Of a DNA stretch of 64,000 nucleotides, positions 54,607 through 58,817 are shown piece by piece. The position numbers and the translations under genes are program-made. The stretch's first letter is position 1, and every line of letters begins with the position of its first letter. The notes beneath the pieces were generated by a model. The model ran no database searches, had not been told where the DNA came from, and was given only the letters and a program-made list of their open reading frames with translations. The DNA is from Tepidicella xavieri (GTDB taxonomy: Bacteria > Pseudomonadota > Gammaproteobacteria > Burkholderiales > Burkholderiaceae_C), in NCBI RefSeq assembly GCF_004363315.1, contig NZ_SNYL01000001.1, forward strand, positions 15,885-79,884, read 5' to 3'.

Positions 54607-56177
54607 AACACGCCTTGCCGCCGCTGAACGATCGCCATGTGCTGGTGCTGGGGCTGGGGGCCTCGGGCCTGGCCATGGCGCGTTGGTGCGCGCTCGCCGG
54701 TGCCCGCGTGACGGTGGCCGACACCCGTCCAACTCCGCCACAGGCCGCCCCACTCATGCAGGAATGGCCGTCGGCGCGCATCGTGTGCAGCGCTTTCGAT
54801 GCCGCGTTGTGGGCCTCGGCCCCCTGGGCGATGGTTTGCCGCAGCCCCGGCATTGCGCCCGCCCAGATGCAGGATGTGCTGGCGGCTGCCCGGGCCGTGG
54901 GGGTGCCGGTGGTGGGTGAGTTGAGCCTGTTTGCGCAGGCGCTGCGGGCGTTGGCAGCCCCGGCGCGGCAGGCCGAGCCAGAGCCGCAGGCCGACCACCC
55001 CGTGCCCTACCGGCCGGTGGTGCTGGCCATCACCGGCACCAATGGCAAGACCACCACCACCGCCTTGACCGCGCATTTGTTGCGCGAGGCCGGCTGGTCC
55101 GTGGGTTTGGCCGGCAACATCGGCCCCACGCTGCTCGATGAGCTGCGCCAGGCGCTCGCCACCGGGGAACTGCCCCAGGCCTGGGTCCTGGAGCTGTCGA
55201 GCTTTCAGCTCGATGGCGTGGAGGATTTCGAGCCCACGGCGGCCACCGTGCTCAACCTGAGTCAGGATCATCTCGATTGGCACGGCAGCATGGCGGCCTA
55301 CGCCGAAGCCAAGCGACGGGTGTTTGGACGCACGGCACTCATGGTGCTCAATCGGGATGATGAGATCGTCATGGGCTGGCAGCCCTCACCCGTGACCGTG
55401 CGCGAAGGGGGGCGCACGCGCACCGAGCCGGGGCGCCCGTTCGTGACGTTTGGCACCGATGGCCCCCGACGCCCGGGCGATTGGGGCCTGGAGACGGTCA
55501 ACGGCATGACCTGGCTGGTGCGCGCCTTGCCGCAGGACGACACGCGCCGCAAAGGGCGCACGGCAACCGACGAGGAAGAGGTCTATCTGCAGCGACTCAT
55601 GCCGGCCGAGGCGCTGCGCATCCGGGGCCGGCACAATGCCAGCAACGCCCTGGCGGCGCTGGCGCTGGCCACCGCTGCCGGTGCGCCATTGGCCCCGATG
55701 CTGCACGGCCTGCGCGAGTACCGTGGCGAGCCGCACCGCGTCGAGCCGGTGGCCATCGTGCGCGACGTGGAGTACATCGACGACAGCAAAGGCACCAACG
55801 TGGGCGCGACGCTGGCCGCCATCAACGGCCTGGGGGCCGAGCGGCGCCTGGTGGTCATCCTCGGCGGCGACGGCAAGGGGCAGGATTTCGCGCCCCTGGC
55901 GCCGGCCGTGGCGCGTCATGTCCGCGCCGTGGCGCTCATCGGGCGCGACGCCGCCGCGTTGCGTGCGGTGCTGGCGCCCACCGGCGTGCCCATGACGGAT
56001 TGCGCCAGCCTGCCCGAGGCCGTGCGCTGGTGCGCGACACAGGCCCAGCCGGGCGACGCGGTGCTGCTGTCGCCGGCCTGCGCCAGCCTCGACATGTTCC
56101 GTGACTACGCGCACCGCGCCGCCGTGTTCGTGGAGACGGTGCGCGAACTCCAGCAAGCGGAGGGCACGCCGGCATGA
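54603..56177 (+). CDS. murD: UDP-MurNAc-L-alanine:D-glutamate ligase
   Basis: A 524-residue Mur ligase adding D-Glu, somewhat longer than the E. coli enzyme (438). The N-terminal fold is [16 protein letters not shown], the ATP loop is [17 protein letters not shown] near residue 145, [12 protein letters not shown] and [12 protein letters not shown] follow. The extra length comes from insertions near residues 110-135 and around 275-335 ([14 protein letters not shown] and [18 protein letters not shown]). The frame is intact. It overlaps mraY and ftsW by four bases each. Confidence 0.96.
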
Positions 56178-57460
56178 ACCAGCCCCGTCTGCCCCATCCC
56201 CTGGCCCGGCTGCTCAGCAGTTGGGGACTTGGACGCGCGGCCAGCACGGCCCAGGCTGAAAGCGGTGAGCTGCCCGTGCGACTGAGCAGCCGCGACTATG
56301 CACGCAGCCGCACCACCGTCGTGCGCGACATGGGCTTTGACCAACCCTTGCTGTGGGTGGTCGTCGCGCTGCTGTGCTGGGGCCTGGTGATGGTGTATTC
56401 GGCCTCGATCGCGCTGCCCGACAACCCGCGTTTCCGCAACTACAGCCATGAGCACTTCGTCATCCGCCATGCCATTGCCATCTGCATCGGCGCCGTCGCA
56501 GGCCTGCTGGCGTTTCAGGTGCCGCTCAAGCGTTGGGAAAAGGCGTCGCCTTGGCTGTTCTTTGGCGCCCTGGTGCTGTTGGTGATCGTGCTCATTCCCT
56601 TCATTGGCAAAGGGGTCAACGGCGCACGGCGCTGGATTCCGCTCGGAGTGATGAACTTCCAGCCATCCGAACTGGCCAAGCTGGCCATGGTGATGTATGC
56701 GGCCGGCTACATGGTGCGCCGCATGGAGGTGAAGGAGCGGTTCTTCCGCGCCGTGGCGCCGATGGGGGTGGCGCTGGCGCTGGCCGGATTCCTGCTGCTG
56801 TTGCAGCCTGACATGGGGGCATTCATCGTGATTGCCGTCATCGCCATGGGCATTTTGTTCCTGGGCGGCGTCAATGCCCGCATGTTCTTCCTGATCGCGG
56901 GCCTGCTGACGGCGGTGTTTGCCGTGCTCATCCTCAGTTCGCCCTGGCGTCGCGAGCGTGTGTTTGCCTACCTCGACCCCTTCAGCGCCGAGCACGCCCT
57001 TGGCAAAGGCTACCAACTGTCCCACGCCCTCATCGCTTTCGGGCGCGGCGAATGGTTTGGCGTGGGCCTGGGGGGCAGCGTCGAGAAGCTGCACTGGCTG
57101 CCCGAGGCGCACACCGATTTTCTGCTGGCCGTCATCGGCGAAGAGTTTGGCCTGGTGGGGGTGTTGGTCCTGATCGCCCTGTTCATGTGGATGGTGCGTC
57201 GCATCATGCAGATCGGCCGCCAGGCCATCGCCCTGGACCAGGTGTTTGCCGGCCTGGTGGCCCAGGGCATTGGCCTGTGGATCGGCTTTCAGGCTTTCAT
57301 CAACATCGGCGTCAACCTCGGCGCGCTGCCCACCAAGGGCCTGACGCTGCCTTTCATGAGCTACGGCGGCTCCGCCATCCTGATGAACATGATCGCCATC
57401 GCCATCGTCCTGCGCATCGACCATGAAAACCGAAAACTCATGCACGGAGGCCGTGTATGA
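56174..57460 (+). CDS. ftsW: Peptidoglycan glycosyltransferase FtsW
   Basis: A 428-residue SEDS polymerase with about ten spans after a 55-residue cytoplasmic N-terminus. Recognisable stretches are [12 protein letters not shown] in the first span, [20 protein letters not shown], the [13 protein letters not shown] region, [17 protein letters not shown] and [11 protein letters not shown]-like [13 protein letters not shown]. It polymerises septal glycan with FtsI. The C-terminus ends LMHGGRV, and the bases encoding it (TGCACGGAGGCCGTGTATGA) carry the ribosome-binding site and ATG of whatever follows. These bases recur three more times in the downstream array. Confidence 0.96.
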
Positions 57461-57469
57461 GTTTTCGGT
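57429..57469. repeat. 41-base palindrome over the ftsW stop / smORF start
   Basis: Arms of 13 bases, 57429-57441 and 57457-57469 (ACCGAAAACTCAT and ATGAGTTTTCGGT), are perfect reverse complements. Between them a G-U pair and CACGG/CCGTG extend the stem to about 19 pairs over the loop AGG. The loop is part of the Shine-Dalgarno GGAGG and the ATG lies in the right arm. At the internal repeat copies the stem shortens to about 12 pairs, and before murG to about 10. Confidence 0.85.
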
Positions 57470-57720
57470 ATCGCCAAAACCTGAAAAAGCACGCGGTCAG
57501 CGTGCGCCCAGCGCAGCGGGGCACTCATGCACGGAGGCCGTGTATGAGTTTTCGGTATCGCCAAAACCTGAAAAAGCACGCGGTCAGCGTGCGCCCAGCG
57601 CAGCGGGGCACTCATGCACGGAGGCCGTGTATGAGTTTTCGGTATCGCCAAAACCTGAAAAGCACGCGGTCAGCGTGCGCCCAGCGCAGCGGGGCACTCA
57701 TGCACGGAGGCCGTGTATGA
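57437..57720 (+). repeat. Tandem 87-bp repeat array between ftsW and murG
   Basis: Unit 1 is 57437-57523 (87 bp), unit 2 57524-57610 (87 bp), unit 3 57611-57696 (86 bp), and a 24-base partial unit 57697-57720 ends exactly at the murG start region. Units 1 and 2 are identical; unit 3 differs only by loss of one A (AAAAA at 57484 and 57571, AAAA at 57658). Each unit contains the SD-bearing hairpin, then a second perfect hairpin GCACGC-GGTCA-GCGTGC (57489-57505 in unit 1) and a third GC-rich inverted pair (GTGCGCCC with GGGGCAC). The first 24 bases are native ftsW end sequence; the other 63 are of unknown origin. Confidence 0.95.
57457..57720 (+). CDS. Small repeat-encoded ORF coupled to ftsW and murG (87 residues)
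   Basis: The ATG overlaps the ftsW stop as ATGA, and the stop overlaps the murG ATG in the same way. The product would be two 29-residue repeats ([20 protein letters not shown] then RGTHARRPC) and a third that shifts frame after RYRQNLK and ends ALMHGGRV, the same last six residues as FtsW (MHGGRV). It is strongly basic with no membrane span. It has a GGAGG at proper spacing and each repeat has its own in-frame ATG. It could be translated simply to pass ribosomes from ftsW to murG. There is no family I recognise, and it may not have a protein function. Confidence 0.5.
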
Positions 57721-58817
57721 ACCGAACTCCCTGCGCGTTGGTCATGGCCGGTGGCACGGGAGGCCACATCTTCCCGGGCCTGGCCGTGGCCGAGGCGCTG
57801 CGTGCCCAGGGCTGGCGCGTGCATTGGCTGGGAGCGCCTGACAGCATGGAGGCGCGCCTGGTGCCACCGCGCGGCTTCGCTTTCGAGCCGGTGGCGTTCG
57901 GCGGCGTGCGTGGCAAAGGCGCTCTGACGCTGGCCCTGTTGCCGTTGCGGCTGTTGCGCGCGTTCTGGCAGAGCTGGCGTGTGGTGCGCCGGGTGCGCCC
58001 CGATGTGGTGCTGGGCCTGGGCGGCTACATCACTTTCCCCGGTGGCATGATGGCCGTGCTGGCGGGCAAGCCGCTGGTGCTGCATGAGCAAAATTCCGTT
58101 GCTGGCTTGGCCAACAAGGTGCTGGCGGGCGTGGCCGACCGGGTCTTCACCGCTTACCCCCGGGCTCTGGCCAAGGGGCAGTGGATTGGAAATCCGCTTC
58201 GGGCCGAGTTCCTGCATCAGCCCGAGCCGGCGCGGCGCTTCGCAGGCCGCAGCGGGCCGCTGAGGGTGCTGGTCGTCGGCGGCAGCCTGGGGGCCAAAGC
58301 CCTCAACGACACGGTGCCGCAGGCGCTGGCCTTGCTGCCGCCAGCGCAGCGCCCCGAGGTCACTCACCAAAGCGGGGAAAAACAGATCGAGGCGCTGCGC
58401 CAGGCCTACGAAGCCGCGGGTGTGCAAGCCCGGCTGACCCCCTTCATCCAAGACACGGCGGCGGCTTTTGCCGCAGCCGATGTGGTGATCGCCCGTGCCG
58501 GGGCCAGCACCGTGACCGAACTGGCCGCGGTGGGCGCGGCCGCCATCTTCGTGCCCTTCCCCCACGCGGTGGACGATCACCAGACCCACAACGCCCGCTT
58601 CCTGGTGGAAGCCGGCGCGGCCTGGCTGTTGCCGCAGACCGAACTCAGCCCCCAGCGGCTGGCCGATCTGTTGCGCGGCCTGGAGCGCCGCGATTTGCAG
58701 GCCCGCGCCGAGCGGGCCCGTGCCTTGGCGCAGACCGGCGCGGTCGATGCGATGGTGCGGGCCTGTGGCGAATTGGCCGGCATGACCCTCTCTGCCTCGA
58801 ACGGAGGCTCTGCATGA
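57717..58817 (+). CDS. murG: UDP-GlcNAc:lipid I N-acetylglucosaminyltransferase
   Basis: A 366-residue GT-B glycosyltransferase making lipid II at the inner face of the membrane. The first G-loop is [32 protein letters not shown] and [13 protein letters not shown] follow, [13 protein letters not shown] is the third loop and [16 protein letters not shown] with [15 protein letters not shown] is the UDP-GlcNAc site. The ATG at 57717 is preceded by GGAGG at 6 bases. The frame is open upstream through the repeat array to 57423, so an N-terminally extended form is possible in principle, but no ribosome site supports it. Its stop overlaps murC by four bases. Confidence 0.95.

Follow-up and report, generated by a model that had tools for sequence, protein, structure and literature searches.

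A structured, translatable bridge ORF at the ftsW/murG junction of Tepidicella xavieri and related Burkholderiales

Within the window (the whole 64,000-nucleotide stretch of Tepidicella xavieri DNA that was analysed), the genes ftsW and murG are separated by a tandem array, the features of which are collected in Table 1. TRF identified a single array at 57436-57720, with a period of 87, 3.3 copies and 99% matches. As assembled, it consists of units of 87, 87 and 86 bp followed by a 25-bp partial copy, in line with the three near-identical units and partial fourth reported in a preliminary description of the locus. Units 1 and 2 are identical, consistent with the recent expansion or homogenisation postulated there, and unit 3 differs from them only in having one A fewer in an A-run. 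Units 1 and 2 have the claimed multiple-of-three length; unit 3 does not, and its 86 bp correspond to the form found in relatives, where a start-to-start distance of 2 mod 3 gives ATGA at both ends. Each unit contains GGAGG and ATGA, and the ATGA that combines the ftsW stop with the next start is present at both ends of the array, as had been described.

Table 1. Features of the ftsW/murG junction, in window positions.
Feature	Position	Strand	Remarks
ftsW	56174..57460	+	last codons form arm A; stop TGA overlaps the bridge-ORF start
Arm A	57425..57447	+	ftsW 3' coding end, 5' side of long hairpin
Array unit 1 (87 bp)	57436..57522	+	
Loop AGG	57448..57450	+	within SD GGAGG
Arm B	57451..57472	+	holds bridge-ORF ATG; reverse complement of A
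Bridge ORF, 87 codons	57457..57720	+	three fused small-ORF copies; -4 overlaps with ftsW and murG
Arm C	57479..57487	+	alternative partner for B
Hairpin 2 (GCACGC-ggtca-GCGTGC)	57489..57505	+	terminator-like on minus strand too
Hairpin 3 (GCCC ... GGGC)	57506..57522	+	
Array unit 2 (87 bp)	57523..57609	+	identical to unit 1
Array unit 3 (86 bp)	57610..57695	+	one A fewer; frame as in single-copy relatives
Partial fourth copy	57696..57720	+	SD GGAGG and the ATGA starting murG
murG	57717..58817	+	ATG overlaps bridge-ORF stop (ATGA)

Each unit holds a small ORF of approximately 28 codons that opens at the ftsW ATGA and closes at the murG ATGA. The units of relatives likewise encode an ORF of 27-30 codons, for example MSCLFHQNRHSAQRCMSRHATWLMHGGRS, extending from the ftsW stop to the murG start. 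In the window, the internal ATGs are mutually in frame, yielding one 87-codon ORF across the three units with a -4 stop/start overlap at each step (ATGA at 57457 and 57717). The array had been described as adding initiation sites; that its main effect is to provide independent ones is not supported: an SD-ATG is indeed repeated in each unit, but the ATGs share one ORF frame. It is the additional A of units 1 and 2 that joins the copies in this ORF, and since units 2 and 3 start in frame within it, a ribosome arriving from ftsW would need one extra termination-reinitiation for the three units, rather than three.

To avoid element-biased sampling, MurG was searched for in 150 family genomes, and found in 146 (137 of 141 genera). 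We collected 144 junctions (30 and 100 new, 14 already in the sample), 142 of which were usable; L160 and L236, each with one gene missing, were left out. The collection did not take in the loci of G106 and G143, whose MurG matches were partial. In 140 of the 142, stop-start steps lead from ftsW to murG without a break, the two uncoupled junctions being L140 (a run of N in the genome, seen in L032) and L265 (no overlap). No intervening ORF is present in 107 of the 140 coupled junctions, including four with a long MurG N-terminus, which bears out the assumption that ftsW and murG normally overlap directly in related bacteria. Where the ftsW stop and the MurG anchor are at least 88 nt apart, all junctions are coupled (37/37), 33 via one or two small ORFs and 4 via long MurG N-termini. 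A wider junction set, partly element-selected, gave 190 coupled junctions out of 192. Here, L064 from Ottowia beijingensis was scored as uncoupled; its FtsW match ends early, and inspection by eye shows that the ftsW overlap is present and that the ORF ends 16 nt short of murG.

An open frame in one genome is weak evidence, because GC-rich inserts shuffled at unchanged length often stay coupled (mean 0.71, 33 junctions). It is the length frame across genomes, as opposed to the open frame of any one genome, that carries the argument in these sequence comparisons and counters a chance open frame. The start-to-start distance of single or terminal units is 80, 83, 86 or 89, in each case 2 mod 3, with the exceptions of L062 (104, also 2 mod 3) and L064 (84). 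For the gene pairs tested in PMC10666635, gaps of approximately 20 nt nearly abolished coupling. A review lists some couplings that tolerate gaps of up to +25 nt and one case of +62 nt (PMC12548453). Going by the effect of the ~20-nt gaps (PMC10666635), an untranslated insert of the size seen here should uncouple murG, or nearly so, and the insert would have to be translated to keep coupling. At the sequence level, the insert provides a frame open from the ftsW stop to the murG start, which a ribosome could pass by termination-reinitiation.

The same frame behaviour is seen in tandem arrays of other genomes. Among the collected loci we found 13 distinct arrays, a count subject to sampling bias. 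Every one of the 13 has a terminal unit of 2 mod 3 and keeps the path to murG. The 15 upstream units comprise 10 of 0 mod 3, fused in frame to the next unit, and 5 of 2 mod 3, which are separate and ATGA-coupled; none is 1 mod 3. The array of the window is of the fused kind, and so is L100, also with three units. Neighbouring units are 92-100% alike in nine of the arrays and 75-84% alike in the other four. Assemblies break inside the array in G142 (L105/L123), G357 (L019/L135) and one named MAG (L045/L050), and copy numbers there are therefore lower bounds.

The element is not confined to T. xavieri. Of 399 family genomes, among them that of the window, 35 gave matches in a DNA search, and the DNA searches yielded 29 loci in other genomes, 26 of them with ftsW/murG (L029, L034 and L036, weak DNA matches lacking these genes, were left out). 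The junctions among those 26 show a direct overlap, a short gap or an insert, mostly of ~80-95 nt, and related Burkholderiales carry either a single unit of ~80-90 bp or a tandem array at the same ftsW|murG junction. A double-motif scan of 84,980 species returned 32 stretches, with the motif at ftsW/murG in every one (32/32); these include two contig ends of one MAG (L045, L050), and the names comprise Rhodoferax, Curvibacter, Hylemonella, Serpentinimonas barnesii, Ottowia beijingensis and many MAGs. Within the family, the strict motif occurs in 14 of 399 genomes (8/141 genera), with 0 for the reversed control, and the covariance model matches 76 of 399 at E <= 0.001 (43/141 genera). All 39 model-match loci examined, which cover part of those 76 genomes, lie at the ftsW/murG junction; a weak model match in G108 is on a different contig from its MurG (at least one such case). 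At the order level, 6 of 300 genomes gave a match at E <= 1e-5. Four of these belong to other families, and their loci hold ftsW and murG, three with a longer related insert.

In those three, L166 (G640), L167 (G498) and L168 (G573), the longer insert carries an A:B palindrome. The stop within the small ORF of L166 overlaps a GTG preceded by CGGAGG, and by eye the relay thus appears to continue as two coupled ORFs. Several genera have bridge ORFs of a second type (L230, L233, L238, L128, L253, L245 and L247), which share the ending 'SDVKR ... NRxLMRGG' and whose middle again looks hairpin-like by eye. A different, truly dispersed GC-rich palindromic repeat at L016:1545-1625 (also in L045 and L171) forms an in-frame MurG N-terminal extension, and has 10 matches in G126, 9 in G137, 23 in G690 and 1 weak match in the genome of the window (G000). 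The junction had no match in plasmids and the unit none in phages, and a plasmid or phage origin was rejected on this basis.

The junction RNA folds far better than 100 shuffled versions (z -10.4). The unit had been said to form hairpins, and two (hairpins 2 and 3) are found besides the long A:B stem. In addition, the preliminary description took some 63 bases of each unit to be unrelated to ftsW. This does not apply to the first ~11-14 of them, which match the ftsW 3' end in reverse complement; the arm following the CAAAA motif, also among these bases, resembles the ftsW 3' end in relatives. When both arms come from the same genome, the 11 outer positions of A:B, compared across 34 genomes, form Watson-Crick pairs in 97.3% of cases and G-U pairs in 0.8%, as compared with 72.0% and 5.2% when arms are swapped between genomes, and none of 5000 permutations matched the observed pairing. 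L046 was left out of the swap test, as were L017 and L053 from its B:C part. In alignment A1 (35 sequences, with identical-junction rows removed beforehand and L045 left out for want of an upstream arm), A:B together with hairpins 2 and 3 has 93.0% of cells paired and 16 pairs with double changes, and its covariation score of 0.259 compares with at most 0.038 in slid versions. For B:C, 80.0% of cells are paired and the score is 0.468, versus at most 0.143 when slid, with two of the five measures no better than chance in the shuffle controls. A:B and B:C share columns 42-52 of A1, and both are conserved, B:C more weakly. Since B pairs with either A or C, A:B and B:C are mutually exclusive. In the alignment, the unit thus keeps a defined covarying structure, made up of the ftsW 3' end (A) paired with the bridge start (B) and two further hairpins, and B can pair with A or with C, never with both.

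Junctions that lack an intervening ORF served as a control: pairing at the A:B positions is 0.29 there, and 0 of 107 reach 0.8. Pairing of at least 0.8 is seen in 11 of the 33 junctions with an intervening ORF, indicating that some bridge ORFs are of the hairpin type and that the rest, although coupled as well, are longer inserts or unrelated ones. Free folding leaves no part of the bridge ATG open in 33 of 35 sequences. When arm A is occluded, the mean unpaired probability of this ATG is predicted to rise from 0.01 to 0.42, with a wide spread, the value staying at 0.04 or below in seven of the 35 genomes, while SD accessibility falls from 0.78 to 0.49 (calculated over slightly different columns). 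An A:B/B:C switch is plausible, and not strongly supported by these predicted folds. No Rfam family was found at gathering score in the window stretch, where two weak miRNA matches lie far below it, nor in the loci of four relatives, and assignment to a known RNA family was rejected. Neither a terminator nor a promoter was found on the coding strand at the junction. The three terminator-like sites there are all on the minus strand, and at 57592-57576 and 57505-57489 of that strand hairpin 2 followed by T5 resembles an intrinsic terminator for antisense transcription.

Taken together, the alignments describe a structured element whose covarying pairs exceed both shuffled and slid controls, a pattern that DNA-level re-templating could also give. 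With A:B almost without G-U pairs, re-templating of one arm from the other fits at least as well as RNA-level selection. The main rival reading is that of a template-switch product kept only because coupling is left intact: replication template switching at an existing short palindrome (CTCATGCACGG AGG CCGTGTATGAG) would have made, and would re-perfect, an inverted copy of the ftsW end that has no function of its own and survives only where coupling persists. We regard such a mutational relic as a distinct possibility, short of an even chance. Hairpins can be created and maintained by template switching, as described in PMC8794818. By eye, A-B-C reads as the ftsW end, an inverted copy and a direct copy, an arrangement expected from a single snap-back and return, and the high likeness of neighbouring units in nine of the 13 arrays points the same way, as does the weak constraint on the encoded peptide considered below. 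The distribution also fits. On an FtsW tree (FastTree, 192 rows, branch support not computed), the 49 type I elements need 24 changes, against 38-49 in 100 shuffles, a count that cannot tell gain, loss and transfer apart. The five rows nearest the window on this tree are without the element, and in two other species of the genus a simple ATGA overlap takes its place. This patchiness, together with the absence from both congeners, means that the element is not required. However, re-copying from ftsW fails to explain the CAAAA motif or hairpins 2 and 3, since these are no ftsW copies and yet show conservation across genera. A relic is also harder to reconcile with the four arrays in which neighbouring units are only 75-84% alike, and with the persistence of related architecture in other families (L166-L168). 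Long perfect palindromes tend towards loss, yet one persists here.

Alternatively, the ~22-bp A:B hairpin could act as an mRNA processing site (RNase III-like) or as a stabiliser that separates the ftsW and murG messages. A long near-perfect stem in mRNA would suit such a role, but the conserved frame and overlaps, arm C and the frame rule of the arrays are left unexplained by it, making this quite unlikely.

We also considered that the small ORF might encode a peptide with a function on FtsW or MurG, perhaps as a mimic of the FtsW C-terminal tail (ENRxLMHGGRV / QNRQLMRGGRA), given that type I ORFs and the longer type II ORFs have an FtsW-like end. This shared tail is necessarily encoded by the SD and ATGA, and compensatory base changes alter the peptide. 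The ORF core, taken as the codons remaining after omission of the first 5 and last 7, has a pN/pS of 0.62 over 29 close pairs, which is below 1 but compares with 0.13 for ftsW, the structure being a confounding factor. Pairs were of equal length, with ftsW pS <=0.5 and <=12 core differences (one pair is identical), filters by which the sample leans to close relatives. In 20 ORFs of 29 codons, differences at the three codon positions are nearly even (1457:1492:1655), as opposed to 2957:638:8908 in ftsW. Judged from these comparisons, nucleotides rather than amino acids appear to be kept, and the peptide looks weakly constrained. With so little sign of purifying selection, the functional peptide was set aside as very improbable.

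The genome of the window (2.79 Mb, 36 contigs) holds the element at a single locus, as opposed to the many copies expected of a REP or MITE: all seven DNA matches to the unit, and all four covariance-model matches, fall inside the array. The earlier proposal of a dispersed REP- or MITE-like element that landed here and was then amplified, although in keeping with a palindromic and tandem sequence, is thereby ruled out for this genome, barring copies in unassembled sequence, and is to be given almost no credence given that the named stretches and examined model-match loci of relatives are specific to the junction (32/32 and 39/39) and that arm B matches the host's own ftsW.

On balance, we favour the view that the insert is a junction-specific, structured and translationally transparent bridge ORF, threefold in T. 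xavieri, that keeps MurG translation coupled to that of FtsW and may gate re-initiation, with a presumed effect on the level of MurG. In untranslated mRNA, A:B would close the bridge ATG. A ribosome finishing ftsW would cover A, upon which B could move to C and the bridge start would be freed. The bridge ORF would then be translated through hairpins 2 and 3, and the ribosome delivered to murG. In this manner MurG would be made only when FtsW is translated, and in a fixed ratio to it, and amplified copies would be kept only if the path to murG stays open.

A broader and more doubtful extension, which we put forward tentatively, is that a translation-gated RNA switch, composed of the ftsW 3' coding end and the relay ORF, sets the MurG:FtsW ratio in Burkholderiales. 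In evolution, this ratio might be tuned through the number of copies and through single-base changes, which would either fuse them, at the cost of one extra re-initiation, or keep them separate, at the cost of one extra per copy. FtsW polymerises septal glycan chains, and MurG makes the lipid II that FtsW uses; the junction may bear on how cells balance the two. As had been stated beforehand, no control of MurG level by such an array is known to have been described, and none of the open-access titles listed by literature searches dealt with this junction. Junctions of related bacteria form a natural series, with or without the element, in single copy or as arrays, and with frames fused or separate, in which coupling strength could be compared directly. 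The element suggests a general rule, whereby an insert between coupled genes survives by becoming a coupled ORF, and it lends itself well to telling RNA-level selection and template-switch mutation apart as the cause of near-perfect covarying stems.

The bridge ORF shares features with several known systems. Leader-ORF attenuators use mutually exclusive hairpins, and here too the position of the ribosome would choose A:B or B:C for one arm. Unlike attenuators, the element lies between two structural genes and no terminator-like site was found on the coding strand of the junction; what the switch would decide is whether a start site is open or closed. Rickettsia palindromic elements sit inserted in ORFs and thus resemble the bridge element as palindromic inserts in an open frame, but the latter is not dispersed and occupies a stop/start junction. 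With REP and BIME palindromes, as characterised in PMC3733652, it has in common that it is short, GC-rich and located between co-directed genes; it differs from that account in its one genomic locus, in the open frame through the element and in an arm matched to the host gene. Hairpins made by template switching, as presented in PMC8794818, are likewise inverted copies of adjacent sequence with near-perfect arms, whereas the bridge has in addition an open overlapping frame, further conserved hairpins and a motif. A further parallel is termination-reinitiation coupling at ATGA overlaps (PMC6728339, PMC10666635, PMC12548453), with which the junction shares the -4 overlap, the internal SD, the co-directed genes and a downstream start closed by structure that includes upstream coding sequence, the closure being predicted in our case. 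In contrast to the couplings covered by those sources, a structured small ORF here forms a relay between the two genes, covaries with the 3' end of the upstream gene and has been tandemly amplified.
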